The notes beneath the pieces are model-generated. The model was not told the DNA's origin. It searched no databases and saw only the letters and a list, made by a program, of their open reading frames with translations. Shown here one piece after another: positions 9,902 through 61,923 of a stretch of 64,000 nucleotides of DNA (the first letter of the stretch is position 1; each line of letters starts with the position of its first letter). Position numbers and translations under genes: made by a program. Where the stretch lies: positions 62,001-126,000 of the forward strand of contig NZ_JABUZG010000038.1 in NCBI RefSeq assembly GCF_014897815.1. Direction: 5' to 3'. The DNA comes from Psychrobacter sp. PG1. Its GTDB lineage: Bacteria > Pseudomonadota > Gammaproteobacteria > Pseudomonadales > Moraxellaceae.

Positions 9902-9965
9902 TTAGAAACTTAGAAACTTAGAAACTTAGAAACTTAGAAACTTAGAAACTTAGAAACTTAGAAAC
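9902..9965. repeat. Perfect tandem repeat, 8 copies of TTAGAAAC
   Basis: Eight uninterrupted copies of an 8-bp unit fill 64 bp immediately upstream of prpC; the array ends 43 bp before its start codon. Such arrays gain or lose units by slipped-strand mispairing. The position is where the prpC promoter or leader would lie. Confidence 0.95.
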
Positions 9966-10008: not shown

Positions 10009-11148
10009 ATGGCAGCACAAAACTCATCAACAAAAGTATTGTCAGGTGCAGGTCTACGCGGACAAGTCGCAGGCAAAACCGCGCTATCTACCGTCGGCAA
10101 ATCAGGCTCTGGTCTGACCTATCGCGGTTATGACGTGTCAGAACTGGCAGACAAATGCATCTTTGAAGAAGTGGCTTACTTGCTGCTTTATGGCAACTTG
10201 CCAAACCAAAGCGAGCTTGACGCTTACCAAGCCAAGCTCAAAAGCTTACGTGGCTTACCGCAGTCATTAAAAGACGTCCTTGAGCGTATCCCTGCCGAAT
10301 CGCATCCAATGGATGTATTACGTACCGGTTGCTCTATGCTGGGTAACTTAGAAACCGAAATGAGTTTTGATGAAGAAAACGACCAAGCAGATCGCATGCT
10401 TGCGGTATTCCCTTCTATCATCAACTACTGGTATCGCTTCACGCATGACAACGTGCGTATCGAAACCGAAACGGATGATGCGACCATTGGTGGTCACTTC
10501 TTGCATCTATTAAAGGGTGAAAAACCAAACGAGCTGCATACAAAAGTAATGAACGTATCACTTATTTTGTATGCAGAGCATGAGTTTAACGCTTCAACCT
10601 TTACCGCACGTGTGTGTGCCTCTACGCTATCTGATATCCATTCTTGTATCACTGGCGCCATCGGTTCACTACGCGGTCCTCTGCATGGTGGCGCTAATGA
10701 GGCTGCGATGGACATGATTGAAGGCTTTAGTTCAGCTGATGAAGCCGAAACTGAGATGATGGGTATGCTGGCGCGTAAAGACAAAATTATGGGCTTTGGT
10801 CATGCTATCTATAGCGAATCAGATCCACGTAACGTGGTGATTAAAGGCTGGGCTGAAAAACTGGCAGCGGATGTTGGTGATGAAGTGCTATATCCAGTAT
10901 CAGTACGCTGTGAAGAAGTCATGTGGCGCGAGAAAAAGCTGTTCTGTAATGCTGACTTTTTCCATGCCTCAGCCTATCACTTTATGGGTATCCCAACCAA
11001 GCTGTTCACGCCAATCTTTGTTTGCTCGCGTCTAACAGGCTGGGCAGCACACGTGTTTGAACAACGCGCCAATAACCGTATCATTCGCCCAAGTGCGGAA
11101 TATACCGGTGAAGAGTTGCGTCCAGTACCAGAGATGAGCGCGCGTTAA
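10009..11148 (+). CDS. prpC: 2-methylcitrate synthase
   Basis: PrpC condenses propionyl-CoA with oxaloacetate to 2-methylcitrate, the entry step of the methylcitrate cycle. The 379-residue protein is of the short citrate-synthase type. Active-site signatures are complete: GPLHGGANEAAMDM (His), MGFGHAIYSESDPR (His) and the C-terminal SRLTGWAAHVFEQ with RIIRPSAEYTG. The opening GLRGQVAGKTALSTVG and GLTYRGYDVSELA are typical of PrpC rather than GltA. AAAGGAA precedes the ATG. An 8-bp repeat array lies directly upstream and a strong terminator-like hairpin directly downstream. Confidence 0.96.
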   Translation: MAAQNSSTKVLSGAGLRGQVAGKTALSTVGKSGSGLTYRGYDVSELADKCIFEEVAYLLLYGNLPNQSELDAYQAKLKSLRGLPQSLKDVLERIPAESHPMDVLRTGCSMLGNLETEMSFDEENDQADRMLAVFPSIINYWYRFTHDNVRIETETDDATIGGHFLHLLKGEKPNELHTKVMNVSLILYAEHEFNASTFTARVCASTLSDIHSCITGAIGSLRGPLHGGANEAAMDMIEGFSSADEAETEMMGMLARKDKIMGFGHAIYSESDPRNVVIKGWAEKLAADVGDEVLYPVSVRCEEVMWREKKLFCNADFFHASAYHFMGIPTKLFTPIFVCSRLTGWAAHVFEQRANNRIIRPSAEYTGEELRPVPEMSAR

Positions 11149-17161: not shown

Positions 17162-19073
17162 ATGCCAACATCTCCCCAGCCACGCCATGTGCAGTTAGAT
17201 AAGAAGCCGCCACTCAAAAAAACGGAGCGGCGCGCTTTGCTGTGGGATATCCTCAAAAAGCTTGCCGTCTTTGCCGCGCCATATAAAGTTCTAATCATTG
17301 CCACTTTGATATTGACCGTACTGGGTTCGTTTACGGCTCAGGTTAATGCCTTTGTGCTGCGCTATGCAGTTGATACCTTGACCGAAATTGCCACGCTTGC
17401 CGAGCCGTGGCAGGCAGGCGTGCGTATGCTAGGTATCATCAGTGCCGTGCTCTTAACCAAAGAGATACTGTCGATATTTATCTCTTTTGGGCAACGCTTC
17501 TTTGGCGAAAAAATTCGTATCAATCTTTCGCGTGATTTATCGCAAAAAATCATTGAGCGCATCCTCACCTACCGCATGGCATTTTATACCAGTAGCGAAA
17601 ACGACAGCGGCAAGTTGCAAACGCGTATCGATTATGGCGTTAGTAGTCTTACAAGCTTAGTGCAAAACTTCTTTATCGATATGCTACCGCTGTTTGCCAG
17701 TGCGATCGTCTCACTCATCATTATGTTTTCGACCAATTTCTGGATAGGCTTAGTCGGTCTTATTATCATTCCCATTTACTTTTTCATAAGTCAAAAACAA
17801 GCGCGGCGTCTACAAGGGTTCCGTCGGCAGATGCGTGGCTATTGAGAAGCCAAAAGTGGCTTGGTTATCTCCTTGATCAACTCTATCAGCGTGGTGAAAT
17901 CCTTTGTCCGTGAGTCGATAGAAGCAGAAAAGCACTTAACCATTCAAAAAGACATGACTGACAATCAGCTGCGTATTCGCAGTATTGGTTTTATTTATGA
18001 TGCGATAAAAACCTTTATTGAGCAAATTGGTGTGGTCGTTATTATTCTGCTGACATCCTACTTTGTTTTAAAAGGCGAGATGACCATCGGTATGATTTTA
18101 TTCCATGTCATGCTATTCCGAAACGTCGCCGCCCCTATTCGTCAATTGCATCGTATCTATGATCAGATTAATAATGCCCTGACTTACGCTGAAGGTTTCT
18201 TTGATATATTAGAAGATGAAAGCCAAGTTGAAGATATCACGGGCAGAAGCAGTAAAAATTTAAAAAGTCATATTGAGCTGAAAAACGTCGATTTCACGTA
18301 CCCGAATGGCACGCAAGCGCTAAAAGATGTCAGTTTTACTATTAAACCCAATCGCATTACTGCGCTGGTGGGCTTAAGCGGCGCTGGCAAGAGTACGATT
18401 ATTAGCTTATTAGTAAAGTTTTATGCGCCAGATAGCGGCACCATATGGCTAGACGGACATAATTTAGCCGACTGCGATACTCATGAATTGCGTCAAAATA
18501 TTGGCTTGGTACTACAAAGTAATCATATCTTTTCGGGTACGATTAGCGAAAATATCCGCTATGGCGATATGAATGCGACAGATGAAGATATTATTATTGC
18601 AGCAAAAAAAGCCTCCATATGGCGATATGAATGCGACAGATGAAGATATTATTATTGCAGCAAAAAAAGCCTCCATTCATGAGCAAATTATTAATTTAGC
18701 AGAAGGCTATGAGAGTACAGCAAAGTCATTGTCTGGTGGTCAGCAGCAGCGTATCGCGCTGGCACGGATGTTTTTAAAAGATCCACCCATTGTGTTTTTG
18801 GATGAGCCAACCGCTAGCCTCGATGCCATCGCCAGCCAACAAGTGAAGAAAAGTCTAGATCTCATCAAAAAAGATCGTACCGTCATTATGGTTTCGCATA
18901 ATATTGCCCAAATTATCGATGCGGATGACTTGGTCGTGATAGAAGATGGTCGCGTGGTTGAAACCGGTACGCATGAAGCGCTATATGAGAAACACGGCAA
19001 GTATTTTGAGATATTCAATGCCATGTCGGATAGCTTAAATTTGGATAAAATCAGCCAGACTCTAAAGGGTTAG
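17162..19073 (+). pseudogene. Broken MsbA-like ABC exporter (TGA plus 58-bp duplication)
   Basis: The parts assemble into one half-size exporter of roughly 615 residues: a membrane domain of about six helices, then an ATPase domain with Walker A VGLSGAGKST, signature LSGGQQQQRIALAR-like segment (SLSGGQQQRIALAR) and Walker B PPIVFLDEPTASLD. Two lesions break it. An in-frame TGA at 17843-17845 interrupts RQMRGY-x-EAKSGLVIS; a single base change would restore an amino acid. A tandem 58-bp duplication (18561-18618 and 18619-18676) shifts the frame within the ATPase domain. Deleting one copy restores NIRYGDMNATDEDI...ASIHEQ. No intact product is expected. Substrate is unknown. Confidence 0.9.
18561..18676. 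repeat. Perfect 58-bp tandem duplication
   Basis: Two identical, directly adjacent 58-bp copies start with ATGGCGATATGAATGCGACA. As 58 is not a multiple of three, the second copy throws the ABC-exporter frame. Identity of the copies suggests a recent event. Confidence 0.97.
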
Positions 19074-52357: not shown

Positions 52358-53056
52358 ATGTTAGAAATTAATGCTATAAATCAATATTACGGCGGCAGTC
52401 ACATCTTACGTGATGTCACCCTAGCCGCACCGGTAGGAGAATGTAGCGTCGTACTGGGTCGTAATGGCGTCGGTAAAACCACCTTGCTTAAATGCTTGAT
52501 GGGCATCCTACCAATAAAATCCGGTGAAATTTTATTAGACGGTAAGGATATTAGTAAGATGACGCCTGAGCAGCGTGTGCGCGCAGGACTGGCTTATGTG
52601 CCGCAAGGACGTGATATCTTTTCCACTTTGACCGTTGAAGAAAACATCCTCATTGGAATGGCAAAATTCTCTCAACGTAAAGCGAGTAAAGTACCTAAAC
52701 ACTTATATGATGTATTTCCAGTGCTGGATGAAATGAAACATCGCCGCGGTGGTGATCTATCAGGCGGTCAGCAGCAGCAACTCGCTATTGCTCGTGCACT
52801 TGCTTCAGAGCCTCGCGTGCTAGTACTTGATGAGCCTACTGAAGGTATTCAACCGTCCATTATTAAAGACATTGGTAGAGTCATTCGTAGTCTTGCTAAT
52901 AAAGGCGAGATGGCAATTGTTTTAGTCGAGCAGTTTTATGAGTTCGCAGAAGAGCTTGCCGATAACTATACCGTGCTCTCTAGAGGACGAGTGGTAGCTC
53001 AAGGGGCTGGATGTGACATGGCAGAAAACAATATTCAAGAGTTGGTGGCAATCTAA
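52358..53056 (+). CDS. urtE: Urea ABC transporter ATP-binding protein UrtE
   Basis: UrtE is the LivF-type second ATPase; the length of 232 residues is normal. Walker A is VLGRNGVGKTTLLKCLMG, Q-loop region AYVPQGRDIFSTLTVEENI, signature DLSGGQQQQLAIARALA and Walker B VLVLDEPTEGIQPSIIK. The start INAINQYYGGSHILRDV is typical of UrtE. An AAGGG site precedes the ATG. Immediately at its stop codon begins the 15-bp repeat array leading to ureD. Confidence 0.95.
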   Translation: MLEINAINQYYGGSHILRDVTLAAPVGECSVVLGRNGVGKTTLLKCLMGILPIKSGEILLDGKDISKMTPEQRVRAGLAYVPQGRDIFSTLTVEENILIGMAKFSQRKASKVPKHLYDVFPVLDEMKHRRGGDLSGGQQQQLAIARALASEPRVLVLDEPTEGIQPSIIKDIGRVIRSLANKGEMAIVLVEQFYEFAEELADNYTVLSRGRVVAQGAGCDMAENNIQELVAI

Positions 53057-53181
53057 AAGGACACTTTATAAAAGGACACTTTATAAAAGGACACTTTCTA
53101 AAAGGACACTTTATAAAAAGACACTTTCTAAAAGGACACTTTCTAAAAAGACACTTTCTAAAAGGACGCTTTCTAAAAGGA
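53055..53181 (+). repeat. Tandem 15-bp repeat array carrying Shine-Dalgarno-like sequences
   Basis: Eight full copies of AAAAGGACACTTT[AC]T (53055-53174, one base changed in some copies: AAAAAGA at two, GACGC at one) and a partial ninth, AAAAGGA (53175-53181), run from the urtE stop to ureD. Most copies contain the core AAGGA. The last AGGA lies 9 bases before the TTG start of ureD and is the likely ribosome site. Units of 15 bp keep the reading frame. Confidence 0.95.
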
Positions 53182-53190
53182 AATACAGTT

Positions 53191-54180
53191 TTGACTTGGC
53201 AATCCTCACTACAGCTTCATTTCGACTGCGCCTCTAATGCTGCAAAAACTCGGCTGTGTCATCGTGCTCATACTGGCGCACTCATGGTGCAGCGCGCGCT
53301 GTATCCTGAGCCTGATAGTACTGACAACAGCCAAGCAGGGATTTGCCATATTTATGTATTGTATCCTCCTGCTGGTATCGCCGATGATGACCGTTTAACA
53401 TTGGAATTTGACCTACACTCTAATAGCCATGCGGTGATTACTACTCCTGGAGCTGAAAAATGGTACGGGCAACGCAAATCGTTACGATCCTCTAGACCTA
53501 GCGACTCATCAAAATTTAATAACGGTACTCAATCGGCAAACAGCAACACTTCTAACGACTGTTTTAATGATGGTGTCAGCGCAGAACAGCATATCGACGC
53601 CCGCCTCGATGACCACGCTGTCTTAGAATGGCTACCTCAAGAAAGTATTTATTACGATTATTCCAACTCTAATGCGAATAACCGATTTTATTTAGCTAAG
53701 ACAGCAAGTTTGTTGACTTGGGATATTGCTGTGTTCGGACGTCAAGCGTATCAAGAGACTTTTGCTAATGGTCATTATGCCAACCGCTTAGAGATATGGC
53801 GTGAGAGTAATTTATTGGTCAGTGAGTGCACCTCCCAGCAAGCAAATACGCGCTGGTTTATCTCACCATTAGGACTGAACAATCAACATGTACATGGCTC
53901 TTTTTGGGCAATACCTAGCACAGAGGTCATTGCATCTGAGTTACAGAATAATCCGCTCAAGCTTGGTCAATATTTAGATGCCACTATTACCGAGCTACGC
54001 CATCTCATTGATACGCAGTCATTACCTATTCACTGTACTCACAATTTTCAAGGTATTAATTGCCGTTATTTAGGAGCAGATGTGCGCGCTTGCTTCGAGG
54101 CTTTTTACCAAGTCCGCGAGCTTATCAGGTCTAAATGGTACGCACTTGAGCCTCATCGACCAAGGATTTGGGATACCTAA
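53191..54180 (+). CDS. ureD: Urease accessory protein UreD, TTG start
   Basis: UreD (UreH) is a scaffold that binds apo-urease with UreF and UreG during nickel insertion. The 329-residue protein has the family features LTWQSSLQLHFDC-like start, KTRLCHRAHTGALMVQRALY, CHIYVLYPPAGIADDDRLTL, NSHAVITTPGAEKWYG and LEWLPQESIYYDYSNS. An insert (SLRSSRPSDSSKFNNGTQSA and following) interrupts the usual sequence near residues 98-130 and is Ser/Asn-rich. The TTG at 53191 is the chosen start; no ATG or GTG in the frame gives a sensible N-terminus, and AGGA of the upstream array lies 9 bases before it. Confidence 0.92.
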   Translation: MTWQSSLQLHFDCASNAAKTRLCHRAHTGALMVQRALYPEPDSTDNSQAGICHIYVLYPPAGIADDDRLTLEFDLHSNSHAVITTPGAEKWYGQRKSLRSSRPSDSSKFNNGTQSANSNTSNDCFNDGVSAEQHIDARLDDHAVLEWLPQESIYYDYSNSNANNRFYLAKTASLLTWDIAVFGRQAYQETFANGHYANRLEIWRESNLLVSECTSQQANTRWFISPLGLNNQHVHGSFWAIPSTEVIASELQNNPLKLGQYLDATITELRHLIDTQSLPIHCTHNFQGINCRYLGADVRACFEAFYQVRELIRSKWYALEPHRPRIWDT

Positions 54181-54330
54181 TACCATGTGCTCCCACTTAA
54201 TCTCATCCCTGAACAATGCTTAATAAAATCAGAATGACTCTACTTAGTACATTTAACTTAGCCTATTTACTTTATAAAGATTAAAAACGAATCATAGCCT
54301 TCAAAAGACAATAATTATTAAGGAAGTTTT

Positions 54331-54633
54331 ATGCAGTTAAATCCTACCGAAAAAGATAAGCTCTTACTATTTACCGCAGGCATGGTGGCGGAACGTCGTA
54401 AAAATCGCGGTGTAAAACTTAATTATCCTGAGTCTATCGCTTATATCAGCATGCTACTGATGGAAGGCGCGCGTGATGGCAAAACCGTGGCGCAACTAAT
54501 GAGTGAAGGAGCCACTTACCTCTCTGCCGATGACGTCATGGAAGGCATTGCAGAGATGATACATGATGTCCAAGTTGAAGCCACTTTCCCCGATGGCACT
54601 AAGCTGGTGACGGTACATAACCCCATCGTATAG
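54331..54633 (+). CDS. ureA: Urease gamma subunit
   Basis: UreA is the small gamma subunit of urease, needed for the (alpha-beta-gamma) trimer. The 100-residue length and sequence ([60 protein letters not shown]) are standard. AAGGAAG precedes the ATG. It is separate from beta, unlike the gamma-beta fusion of Helicobacter UreA. The fused beta-alpha gene starts 74 bp downstream, after a good AAGGATAA site. Confidence 0.97.
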
Positions 54634-54707
54634 CTTGCTTGTTGTAAAGCCGTATAAAACGATATTGAACGAGAGCCATTGCCGTAAGACGATTAAGGAT
54701 AATAAAA

Positions 54708-56828
54708 ATGACGATGAAAGCAGGCGAATATAATATTAAAGCAGGCGATATGGCTTTGAACGCTGGTCGATATGTTCAAACCATAACGGTAATCAATACT
54801 GGCGACCGCCCTATTCAAATCGGTTCTCATTATCACTTCTATGAAGTCAATGCAGCACTGAGCTTTGATCGAGAGTGGACGCTTGGCTATCGACTCAATA
54901 TCTTATCTGGTACTGCGGTACGCTTTGAGCCGGGCCAAGCACGAGAAGTTGAGCTAGTCGCTATCGCCGGTAAACAACACATCTATGGTTTTTCAGGCAA
55001 GGTTATGGGCGTTGTAGACCCTAAAATCTCTCAAAATACCTCGAAAAAACGCATTGACCGACGTATTTATGCCGAACATTTTGGCCCTACTACAGGAGAT
55101 AAGGTACGCTTAGCCGATACAAATTTATGGCTTGAGGTTGAATATGATTTGACCAGTCACAGTGACCAACGTACTGATAGCATCGGTGAAGAGGTCAAAT
55201 TTGGTGGCGGCAAGGTAATCCGCGATGGGATGGGTCAATCACAGCTGCTGGGTGACCAAGTTGCCGATACCATTATTACCAATGCTCTGATTGTCGACTA
55301 TAGCGGTATCTATAAGGCAGATATCGCTATTAAGGGCGGTCGCATTAGCGGCATCGGTAAAGCCGGTAACCCTGATATTCAGCCTAACGTGACGTTACCT
55401 ATTGGCGCGGCTACCGAAATTATCGCAGGAGAAGGTAAAATATTAACTGCTGGCGGGATCGATAGTCATATTCACTTCATTGCACCGCAGCAGTGTGAAA
55501 CGGCATTGATGTCTGGTGTAACCACGATGTTAGGCGGTGGGACGGGACCTGCTGAAGGCACTCTTGCCACCACTTGTACGCCTGGTGCCTATCATATTCA
55601 CAGCATGCTAAAAGCCACTGATGCTATTCCGATGAATATTGGATTGTTAGGTAAAGGCAATGTTAGTTTACCAGCGCCAATTGTTGAGCAAATCGAAGCA
55701 GGAGCTATCGGGCTTAAGCTTCATGAAGACTGGGGCTCCACGCCCAAAGCCATTGATAACTGCCTTAGCGTGGCCGAAGAATATGATGTGCAAGTGGCGA
55801 TTCATACTGATACGTTAAATGAAAGCGGCTATTTAGATAGCACTCTCGGCGCGTTTAAAGACCGCTGTATTCACACCTTCCATACCGAAGGCGCTGGCGG
55901 CGGTCATGCCCCAGATATCTTAAAAGCTATTGGCGAAACCAACGTTTTACCCTCATCAACCAATCCAACGCGCCCTTTTACTATTAATACCATTGACGAG
56001 CATCTCGACATGCTCATGGTTTGTCACCACTTAAGCCCAGCCATTGCTGAAGATGTCGCTTTTGCCGAAAGTCGTATTCGTAAAGAAACCATTGCCGCCG
56101 AAGACATTTTACAAGATATGGGTGCCATCTCCATGATGAGTAGTGATTCGCAAGCGATGGGACGCGTGGGAGAAGTCATTATTCGCACGTGGCAAACGGC
56201 TGATAAAATGAAAACCCAACGTGGTCATCTGGCTCCTGATCAATCGGCTAAAACTGAGCAATCCTTAGAAAATATCATGCTAAGTCCCACTGACTCTGAT
56301 AGCAGCAATGATAATTTTCGTATCAAACGCTACCTCGCAAAATACACCATCAATCCTGCCATCACTCATGGCATTAGTGACGAAGTGGGATCCATTGAAG
56401 TAGATAAATGGGCGGATTTAATTTTATGGTCGCCGGCATTTTTTGGCGTAAAGCCCGACCTTATCATTAAAGGCGGCTTGATTGCGGCAGCGTCCATGGG
56501 CGACCTCAATGCTTCCATTTCAACCCCGCAGCCTGTGCACTATCGCAGCATGTTTGGTAGCTTCCCCAAAACAGTGGCGCAGACTTGCATCACCTTTATG
56601 TCAAGTGCGGCTATTGATAAGGGTGTTGATAAGCAATTAGGGTTAGAAAAGGTCATTAAAGCGGTACACAACATTCGTAAGGTACGTAAACAAGACATGA
56701 AGTTTAATAGCTACTGTCCTAAGATGGAGGTCAATCCTGAGACCTATGAAGTGTACGCCGATGGTGAGCTGCTGACCTGTGAGCCTGCCGACTATCTACC
56801 GATGGCACAGCGCTATTTTTTATTCTAG
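54708..56828 (+). CDS. ureBC: Fused urease beta-alpha subunit (UreB-UreC)
   Basis: One 706-residue frame encodes urease beta and alpha. Residues 1-~103 are the beta subunit ([40 protein letters not shown]), then a linker about residues 104-120 ([17 protein letters not shown]) and the alpha subunit from [15 protein letters not shown]. All alpha active-site elements are present: [13 protein letters not shown] (two His), [10 protein letters not shown] (carbamylated Lys), [32 protein letters not shown] (flap Cys and His) and SSDSQAMGR (Asp). There is no stop or restart between the parts. A Ser/Asp-rich insert of about a dozen residues lies before [17 protein letters not shown]. It hydrolyses urea to ammonia and carbamate. 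Confidence 0.95.
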
Positions 56829-60066: not shown

Positions 60067-61923
60067 TTACCAGCTAAAGCCCATACCCATGCCACCAGAG
60101 TTCTCATCTTTTGTGAAAGCACCACCGAGACTAAAGCTGGTATTGGGATTAATGACACGCTGATACCCTAAGGAAACCGCTTGCTCGGAGCCCTGAAAAC
60201 CTGCACCCACGCCTATACGGTTCTTACCTTGTAAACCTGACGTGCTGGTTGCCATGTTTAACATCGCAGCACTCATCGCACCTTGACGATCAAAACGATC
60301 ATCAATTTCCTTAAAACGCTGTCCATTGTCTTGCAGATAATTGTGAATAGAGTCATTTAGAGCATTAAATTTAGTATCAGTATAAGTGTTCGAGGTTTCG
60401 ATAGCGCTTGTTTTTGCGTCTTGTAACTGACTGACATTGACTGCGTCATTATCAGCGGTACCATTAGCAACATTGATAATCTGACGCTGGTTAAGATCCG
60501 AGCCAACCGACACTGTGTTTTCACGGCTAGAGCTAGATTCATTGCCGAGTACCACGGCGTTTTTTGCAGTAGTATTGACATTATTGCCGAGCACAAAAGT
60601 ATTATCGCCAGACACGGTATTATTATTGCCCATACTATAGCTGTTATTGCCACTGACCGTACTTGGATCGCCAATTGCACCTGAATGATTTCCAGTCACT
60701 TTATTACCAGTGCCAATGCTGATAGCTTGCTCGCCGATTGCTTGAGCACCATCTCCTATTGCAATAGATTGCTTGCCCTGCGCCGCCGCGTTAGCGCCTA
60801 AAGCCATTGCGTTGTCTCCACTAGCAATCGCTTCTGCAGACGTACCACCATTGATGCTTAGGTATTTATGCTGTGCAGCAATGTCCTGTTTAACGATTAG
60901 CACCTGATCATTTGTATAACTTTGTGACAATGCTAGAGTCTCGGTGGCTTTGCCATCAGTATAACTTTGTGACGATGCTAGAGTCTCGGTTGCTTTACCA
61001 TCGGTGTAACCTTTGGAGGCAGTCAAAGTCTCGGTTGCTTTACCATCGGTATAGCCTTTGGAGGCGGTTAAAGTTTCAGTTGCTTTGTCGTCGGTGTATC
61101 GTTTATTTACCGCATCTTTATCATTTGTCGCATCTGCCACGTTAGTGATACGTTTTTCGAAACCCTTGCTACCAACTGAAATCGTATCTCTTTCATCTGC
61201 AATGGAGAAACTACCTATGGCGGTTGCGCCTGTCGCAGTGGCTTGGCTATTACTGCCAAACACGCTGCTGTCTGTACTTGATGCGGTATTCTGATAACCA
61301 ACTGCAACACTGTAGTCACCCTCTGATGTATTTTCAAAACCGACGGCACTACTGTCTTTACCTGATGCTTTATTATTATAACCGACGGCACTGCTATTTA
61401 CATTCGAGGCGGTATTTTTATAGCCAATTGCACTGCTATTTATGTTCGATGCCGTGTTGTTATAACCAAATGCACTACTATAACCCTCTGAGGCGATATT
61501 ATTAGATCCTACCGCACTACTATTGATACGCGATGCGGTATTGTTATAACCAACGGCACTACTATACTTAACTGATGCTTCATTATTAGCACCTAACGCA
61601 CTACTATAATCACCTGATGCTACATTAGTATAACCAACCGCACTGCTATAACCACCCGAGGACTTATTGAAAAATCCCACTGCATTGCTAGAGTTACCTG
61701 TTGCTTCATTTGCATGACCTAGCGCACTAGTCGCTTCATTGTCAATACCTAAAGCACTGCTATTGAGACCGTCTGCTGCATTATTTATTCCACAGGCTAC
61801 TGCAATTACACCTGTTGCCGTACTTCCTCCAGAAACAGGATCCGATACGCATACCACGCCTGCCCACACTGTCGAACCACTGATCGCTGCGATACTGAAG
61901 GCAAGCCCTTTTAGTGTCAACAT
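60067..61923 (-). CDS. Trimeric autotransporter adhesin (YadA-like), body frame
   Basis: This 618-residue frame encodes a YadA-type trimeric adhesin. The head (about 20-260) is built of 14-residue SAVGYxNTAS-like Hep/Hag repeats. A stalk follows with five 15-residue repeats on the pattern KATETLTASKGYTDG (about 270-345), a second head (SIAIGDGAQAIGEQAISIGT), the neck TADNDAVNVSQL, and the C-terminal membrane anchor (RFDRQGAMSAAMLNMATS to GGMGMGFSW, about 545-618). The body frame alone starts at MLTLKGLAFSIAAISG, keeping a short signal peptide. Its usual extended leader lies upstream in another frame (61944-62060). So it is either inactive, phase-variable or a sequencing artefact. Confidence 0.85.
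   Translation of the reverse strand: MLTLKGLAFSIAAISGSTVWAGVVCVSDPVSGGSTATGVIAVACGINNAADGLNSSALGIDNEATSALGHANEATGNSSNAVGFFNKSSGGYSSAVGYTNVASGDYSSALGANNEASVKYSSAVGYNNTASRINSSAVGSNNIASEGYSSAFGYNNTASNINSSAIGYKNTASNVNSSAVGYNNKASGKDSSAVGFENTSEGDYSVAVGYQNTASSTDSSVFGSNSQATATGATAIGSFSIADERDTISVGSKGFEKRITNVADATNDKDAVNKRYTDDKATETLTASKGYTDGKATETLTASKGYTDGKATETLASSQSYTDGKATETLALSQSYTNDQVLIVKQDIAAQHKYLSINGGTSAEAIASGDNAMALGANAAAQGKQSIAIGDGAQAIGEQAISIGTGNKVTGNHSGAIGDPSTVSGNNSYSMGNNNTVSGDNTFVLGNNVNTTAKNAVVLGNESSSSRENTVSVGSDLNQRQIINVANGTADNDAVNVSQLQDAKTSAIETSNTYTDTKFNALNDSIHNYLQDNGQRFKEIDDRFDRQGAMSAAMLNMATSTSGLQGKNRIGVGAGFQGSEQAVSLGYQRVINPNTSFSLGGAFTKDENSGGMGMGFSW

Follow-up and report, generated by a model that had tools for sequence, protein, structure and literature searches.

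Moraxella catarrhalis belongs to the same bacterial family as the organism considered here. Its uspA2 gene has AGAT repeats in the untranslated leader, where the array described below also lies with respect to ureD, and their number varies between strains and alters uspA2 expression, an effect shown by mutation according to PMC4679880. The uspA2 repeat has a 4-bp unit with neither a Shine-Dalgarno (SD) motif nor a stop codon and precedes a surface-protein gene, whereas the ureD array has a 15-bp unit and lies inside an apparent operon. The same source describes the TAACTGA repeats of marine Beggiatoaceae and cyanobacteria, which are likewise intergenic direct repeats near start codons; a pair of closely related cyanobacteria are distinguished chiefly by indels of 7 nt. 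These repeats consist of one heptamer with little SD character that occurs in ∼169 sets in a genome, whereas the ureD array occupies one place and has the SD in its unit. Mycobacterial interspersed repetitive units (MIRUs) also lie at gene starts and leave the neighboring gene expressible, but they are apparently mobile, occupy many sites, and contain a small ORF coupled at −4 nt spacing (PMC12548453), whereas the ureD array has one site and no ORF start. Finally, ribosome standby sites, such as that of tisB and others, are stretches of upstream RNA that possibly receive the 30S subunit before initiation (PMC7708055). A single-stranded region ∼100 nt upstream of a sequestered ribosome-binding site is required at tisB; at ureD, the terminal SD is predicted to be partly paired (∼0.4 unpaired) at every unit number. 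No published description of an array at the urtE-ureD junction was found in the open-access literature, as judged by titles and the openings of abstracts, and a urease paper, PMC2806259, was a false lead.

The window, by which is meant the whole 64,000-nucleotide stretch of DNA analyzed, comes from a 3.49-Mb draft genome of 84 contigs, and the count of eight internal units given below comes from that draft assembly. The gene upstream of the array encodes an ABC transporter ATPase by Pfam, and we take it to be urtE from its operon context; on the same grounds, urtE and ureD are presumed to be parts of a urea-uptake and urease cluster. The features of the junction are as follows.

52358 to 53056, forward strand: urtE, urea ABC transporter ATP-binding protein (Pfam ABC_tran).
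53054 to 53173, forward strand: eight internal 15-bp units, consensus TAAAAGGACACTTTM.
53174 to 53190, forward strand: terminal 17-bp unit TAAAAGGAAATACAGTT, which carries what is likely the working SD (AAGG in 15 of 15 terminal units).
53191 to 54180, forward strand: ureD, urease accessory protein, with a TTG start at 53191 (Pfam UreD, 1.9e-38).

The register of the array was set from the urtE stop codon, a TAA at 53054 to 53056 that forms the first codon of unit 1. TRF finds the tandem repeat at 53052 to 53181 (period 15, 8.7 copies, 92% matches, score 218), filling the spacer between the two genes. AAGGA is intact in internal units 1, 2, 3, 4, 6, and 8, with AAAGA in units 5 and 7, and recurs in the terminal unit at 53177 to 53181, 9 nt 5′ of the ureD TTG, so that seven of the nine units contain it. 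The initial annotation had described about eight and a half 15-bp copies, most with AAGGA, between the transporter and urease genes, the last of them serving the TTG start. All of this is borne out, the role of the last copy by the relatives: the TTG is at the same place in all 22 loci with urtE upstream, and the terminal AAGG is kept in every array.

That the head-to-tail array is real and beyond chance is confirmed by 100 order-3 Markov simulations of the window, in which the best TRF score per simulation had a mean of 45.7 and a maximum of 70. A search for the unit with up to two mismatches across the whole draft genome returned eight matches in the array and three lone two-mismatch matches elsewhere; the unit array is confined to this junction in the genome, and a dispersed element, MIRU or other, is thereby ruled out. 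A simple scan of 52600 to 54800 found neither promoter nor terminator within the array, giving one promoter-like site on the minus strand (54449 to 54422; shuffles, mean 5.1) and no terminators (shuffles, mean 1.9).

Of the 105 genomes of the genus, 80 have a match to ureD; the 30 best matches were taken as loci. urtE lies directly upstream in 22 of the 30, with none in the fetched flank of the other eight. Seven of the 22 (L017–L019 and L021–L024) have unrelated spacers of 44–273 nt and were left out of the array counts. The remaining 15, hence at least 15 of the 105 genomes, have a unit-type junction. The 15 relatives identified by name are all Psychrobacter. One genome stands for each species, so the comparison is one between species. 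A pattern scan of all 105 genomes, independent of the ureD loci, found the unit pair in 14; the fifteenth junction, L020, is a decayed form that exceeds the mismatch limit of the scan, and further decayed forms may exist beyond the best 30 ureD matches and the pattern scan. In Psychrobacter sp. WY6 (L028/L056), the ureD match falls into three pieces (residues 1–168, 165–237, and 237–329), consistent with frame breaks that reflect either gene decay or sequencing error.

Copy number is confirmed to vary between species in 15-bp steps. One unit is present in six arrays (L010, L011, L012, L014, L016, and L020), two in seven (L005, L006, L007, L009, L013, L015, and L028), four in L008, and eight in the window genome, the spacers being 29, 44, 74, and 134 nt for one, two, four, and eight units, respectively; L005, L006, and L007 have the same or almost the same flanks and do not count as independent. 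The initial annotation had set a fixed copy number in all relatives against its own proposal, and across these 15 species-level genomes the number is not fixed. A tree built from the flanks with the junction removed, in which nine of 18 inner branches are unresolved, requires a minimum of seven changes of unit number, and the firmly supported sister pair L008/L012 has four units versus one. The last two units and the terminal unit of the window and L008 are exactly alike, and the two are 98.7% identical over the first 150 bp of ureD, yet L008 groups firmly with L012. Flank identity around the junction (L004, L008, and L012) forms a mosaic between species. Given this shared array end and the mosaic flanks, local recombination has probably also moved the junction between species. 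Units appear to have been lost as well as gained: the single AAAGA unit of L016 is what would remain if the two-unit form found in L013 and L015 had its first unit deleted.

The growth of the spacer from 29 to 134 nt could itself be what matters, with the SD motifs irrelevant and a longer untranslated stretch making ureD less tightly coupled to urtE translation or leaving the transcript open to termination or decay. According to PMC10666635, a 38-nt spacing in E. coli reduced reinitiation by 80–90% for two pairs of genes and eliminated it for another. Against this, work cited in PMC12548453 saw nothing lost between −4 and +25 nt and a gradual loss from +50 to +850 nt; coupling at 29 nt may already be weak, which would leave little to lose; and the seven relatives with unrelated spacers have 44–273 nt at the same junction. 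We regard spacer length as the governing factor to be distinctly improbable.

The terminal motif and its internal copies differ in conservation. Terminal AAGG is AAGGA in four of the 15 arrays and AAGGG in 11. Internally, AAGG (always as AAGGA) is kept in 19 of 32 units and lost in 13; with each set of identical haplotypes reduced to one, it is kept in 13 of 22. In 11 of the 15 arrays, one or more internal units lack AAGG, and in two, L016 and L020, all of them do. Column 15 is the most variable internal column and the first G the next; all 32 units are identical except at columns 3, 5, 6, 7, 9, 10, and 15. We read the invariant columns as the mark of recent copying, a picture that constraint would give as well. 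The usual change, AAGGA to AAAGA, takes the computed pairing with the 16S tail, for which we assumed the sequence, from −5.3 to −0.9 kcal/mol. An A at column 6 occurs in 12 internal units, variants that are common by descent and stand for perhaps two or three independent mutations. Because the variants share descent and the other columns are nearly invariant, the case from the sequences that the internal SDs are not under selection is fair but not overwhelming.

The explanation that we prefer, and consider very probable, is that the array is an intergenic minisatellite in which the terminal SD starts ureD and the internal SD-like copies are mostly passengers. It shows two marks of such a locus (VNTR), namely head-to-tail copies beyond chance and a between-genome difference in copy number at one place. 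In essence, a 15-bp segment would have been duplicated in tandem by replication slippage or unequal recombination. The likely seed is a one-unit junction such as sister species have. There, the sequence at the end of urtE (TAAAAGG...) recurs in imperfect form 15 bp further on, at the ribosome site of ureD, as a direct repeat. If the repeat halves slipped or exchanged unequally, 15 bp would be added or removed, with the first copy always ending urtE and the last always serving ureD. Each unit combines the urtE stop codon with an SD-like AAGGA; whatever is gained or lost, a stop codon would stay at the front and an SD properly spaced from the TTG at the back, and both genes would survive any copy number. 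This joining of stop and SD can explain how the array is built, why it changes in 15-bp steps, and why the motifs are unequally conserved, with no function for the internal copies. From a comparison of one genome per species, we infer that slippage was the mechanism and that one unit is ancestral; the neutrality of the internal copies is argued from the conservation pattern. The longer spacer may have a modest side effect on coupling, transcript stability, or 30S recruitment, and any regulatory effect of the array is probably small.

The initial annotation had proposed instead that a run of ribosome-binding sites could act as standby sites and adjust ureD output as slippage changes the copy number. 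In such a standby or tuning array, the internal units would hold 30S subunits near ureD. Several features would fit. AAGGA is present in six of the eight internal units of the window, and their computed pairing is nearly that of the terminal SD (−5.3 versus −5.6 kcal/mol). The models leave the terminal SD just ∼40% unpaired, which makes upstream help conceivable. Unit number differs between species, and in the uspA2 leader the number of repeats alters expression. The loss of AAGG from 13 of 32 internal units and its complete absence from two of 15 arrays speak against such a role, since the internal motifs are not maintained as those of a standby site or SD array would be (19/32 versus 15/15 for the terminal one), as does the finding that 13 of the 15 arrays have only one or two units. 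Furthermore, the terminal SD is modeled to be about equally accessible at all unit numbers: the predicted probability that the terminal SD is unpaired at 37 °C is 0.42, 0.44, 0.39, 0.38, and 0.38 for one, two, four, six, and eight units, with values close to these at 15 and 4 °C. A standby or tuning array therefore seems unlikely. In its more specific form, the SD units would constitute an evolvable rheostat, each added unit recruiting or holding a 30S subunit, protecting the untranslated spacer, and raising ureD initiation. We retain this at quite a small probability because of the reported effects of spacer distance on coupling and of the leader repeats on uspA2.

AAGGA also fits ANGGA, the binding motif of CsrA, and the array could be a CsrA-type target in which the motifs, possibly displayed in the loops of UAUAAA-AGGACAC-UUUAUA hairpins, bind the protein and repress ureD. 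A csrA gene is present in the genome (PF02599, 4.4e-25), several GGA motifs follow one another at 15-nt spacing, and GGA-centered CsrA sites are stated in PMC4679880. However, 15 of the 32 units have C or T at column 15, where the stem requires an A; 13 of them no longer contain GGA, taking all 32 together; the array RNA folds no better than shuffles (z −0.23); and the unit is unique to this one junction in the genome. GGA in conserved hairpin loops, the hallmark of a CsrA target, is thus not what the array presents, and repression by this route is very improbable.

The suggestion that the unit length keeps the ureD frame open is correct, the frame being open for 58 codons upstream of the TTG, and one further frame is also open through the array, whereas the urtE frame meets a TAA in every unit. 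Translation of the array, whether to extend UreD at its N terminus or to make a leader peptide, does not follow from this. There is no ATG, GTG, TTG, or CTG in any frame from 53054 to 53190, and a check of the ureD frame for ATT, ATC, and ATA found just three ATA codons in the array. With no common start codon, we reject a translated array as having almost no chance of being right.

Other repeats of the genome serve as controls and favor slippage. A second leader array in the window, eight perfect copies of TTAGAAAC at 9902–9965, precedes a gene at 10009 that belongs to the citrate synthase family by Pfam and that we presume from context to be prpC. It shares with the ureD array its clade, an intergenic leader position, and variable copy number; it differs in having perfect 8-bp units with no SD, the SD-like AAAAGGA of the gene lying outside the array, versus 15-bp units with one. 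In the 30 loci fetched of 104 matching genomes, the 13 closest have 1–14 perfect copies, and more distant ones have 0 or 1. Both loci could be compared in 12 of the 15 array genomes, G013, G018, and G028 being absent from the fetched octamer loci, and octamer number does not track ureD units (14 versus 1 in G050, 12 versus 2 in G020, and 1 versus 4 in G021). G020, G022, and G051 have 12, 5, and 2 octamers though their urtE-ureD flanks are identical or nearly so, and the octamer looks like the more active simple-sequence locus.

Across 463 kb of the window genome (20 stretches totaling 399 kb, plus the window), there are 13 arrays of at least 2.8 copies with a period of 6–40, two of them in the window. 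By simple ORF calling, nine are intergenic and four lie inside ORFs, and one (L126:15112–15147) likewise overlaps the stop codon of the preceding ORF. By score, the ureD array ranks first among the 13, a point that, together with AAGGA in six of eight internal units of the window, counts against the passenger reading; it is not different in kind from the others. Two further repeats were noted in the window. A perfect 58-bp tandem duplication at 18560–18676 lies, as judged by eye, in an apparent ABC-exporter gene; its length is not divisible by 3, the reading falls into two overlapping ORFs (17861–18643 and 18573–19073), and the duplication may reversibly disrupt the gene or stem from the assembly. 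On the minus strand at 60067–61923, a 618-amino acid protein has repeated SSAVGYNN-like motifs, with DNA repeats of 42–126 bp, and we take these to resemble the head repeats of trimeric autotransporters.

Among the matches listed, a pattern of three AAGGA motifs at 4–22-nt spacing occurs in at least 78 of the 105 genus genomes; the reversed control pattern also matches often, and for this reason no enrichment is claimed. Twenty stretches were picked by eye among these matches for tandem-repeat inspection. With crude ORF calling, an AAGGA array lies 6–8 bp 5′ of a same-strand ORF start in two of them, L139 (2.4 copies) and L157 (3.5 copies). Four others are inside ORFs, six are of an iteron-like 22-bp type, and the remainder lie well away from any start, on the opposite strand, or where a gene ends. 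The 22-bp, AAGGACGTTTAGTTACCCATAT-like arrays (L142, L143, L144, L146, L148, and L149) are, we assume, akin to plasmid origin iterons; five of the stretches are on four contigs of 5.7–7.5 kb, the sixth lies at one end of a contig of 15.5 kb, and contig G036:C48 has such an array near both ends.

The ureD array thus looks like an ordinary minisatellite, and it exemplifies a repeat unit that joins a stop codon to a ribosome site and whose expansion is harmless by construction. The octamer array, also in a leader of the window, is still more variable among relatives, so minisatellites of this type could be common in gene leaders of this Psychrobacter group. The natural series of one, two, four, and eight units lends itself to finding out whether additional SD motifs ahead of a start codon have any effect. 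Were the rheostat to prove real, slippage would let lineages set UreD, and hence urease activation, relative to urea uptake.
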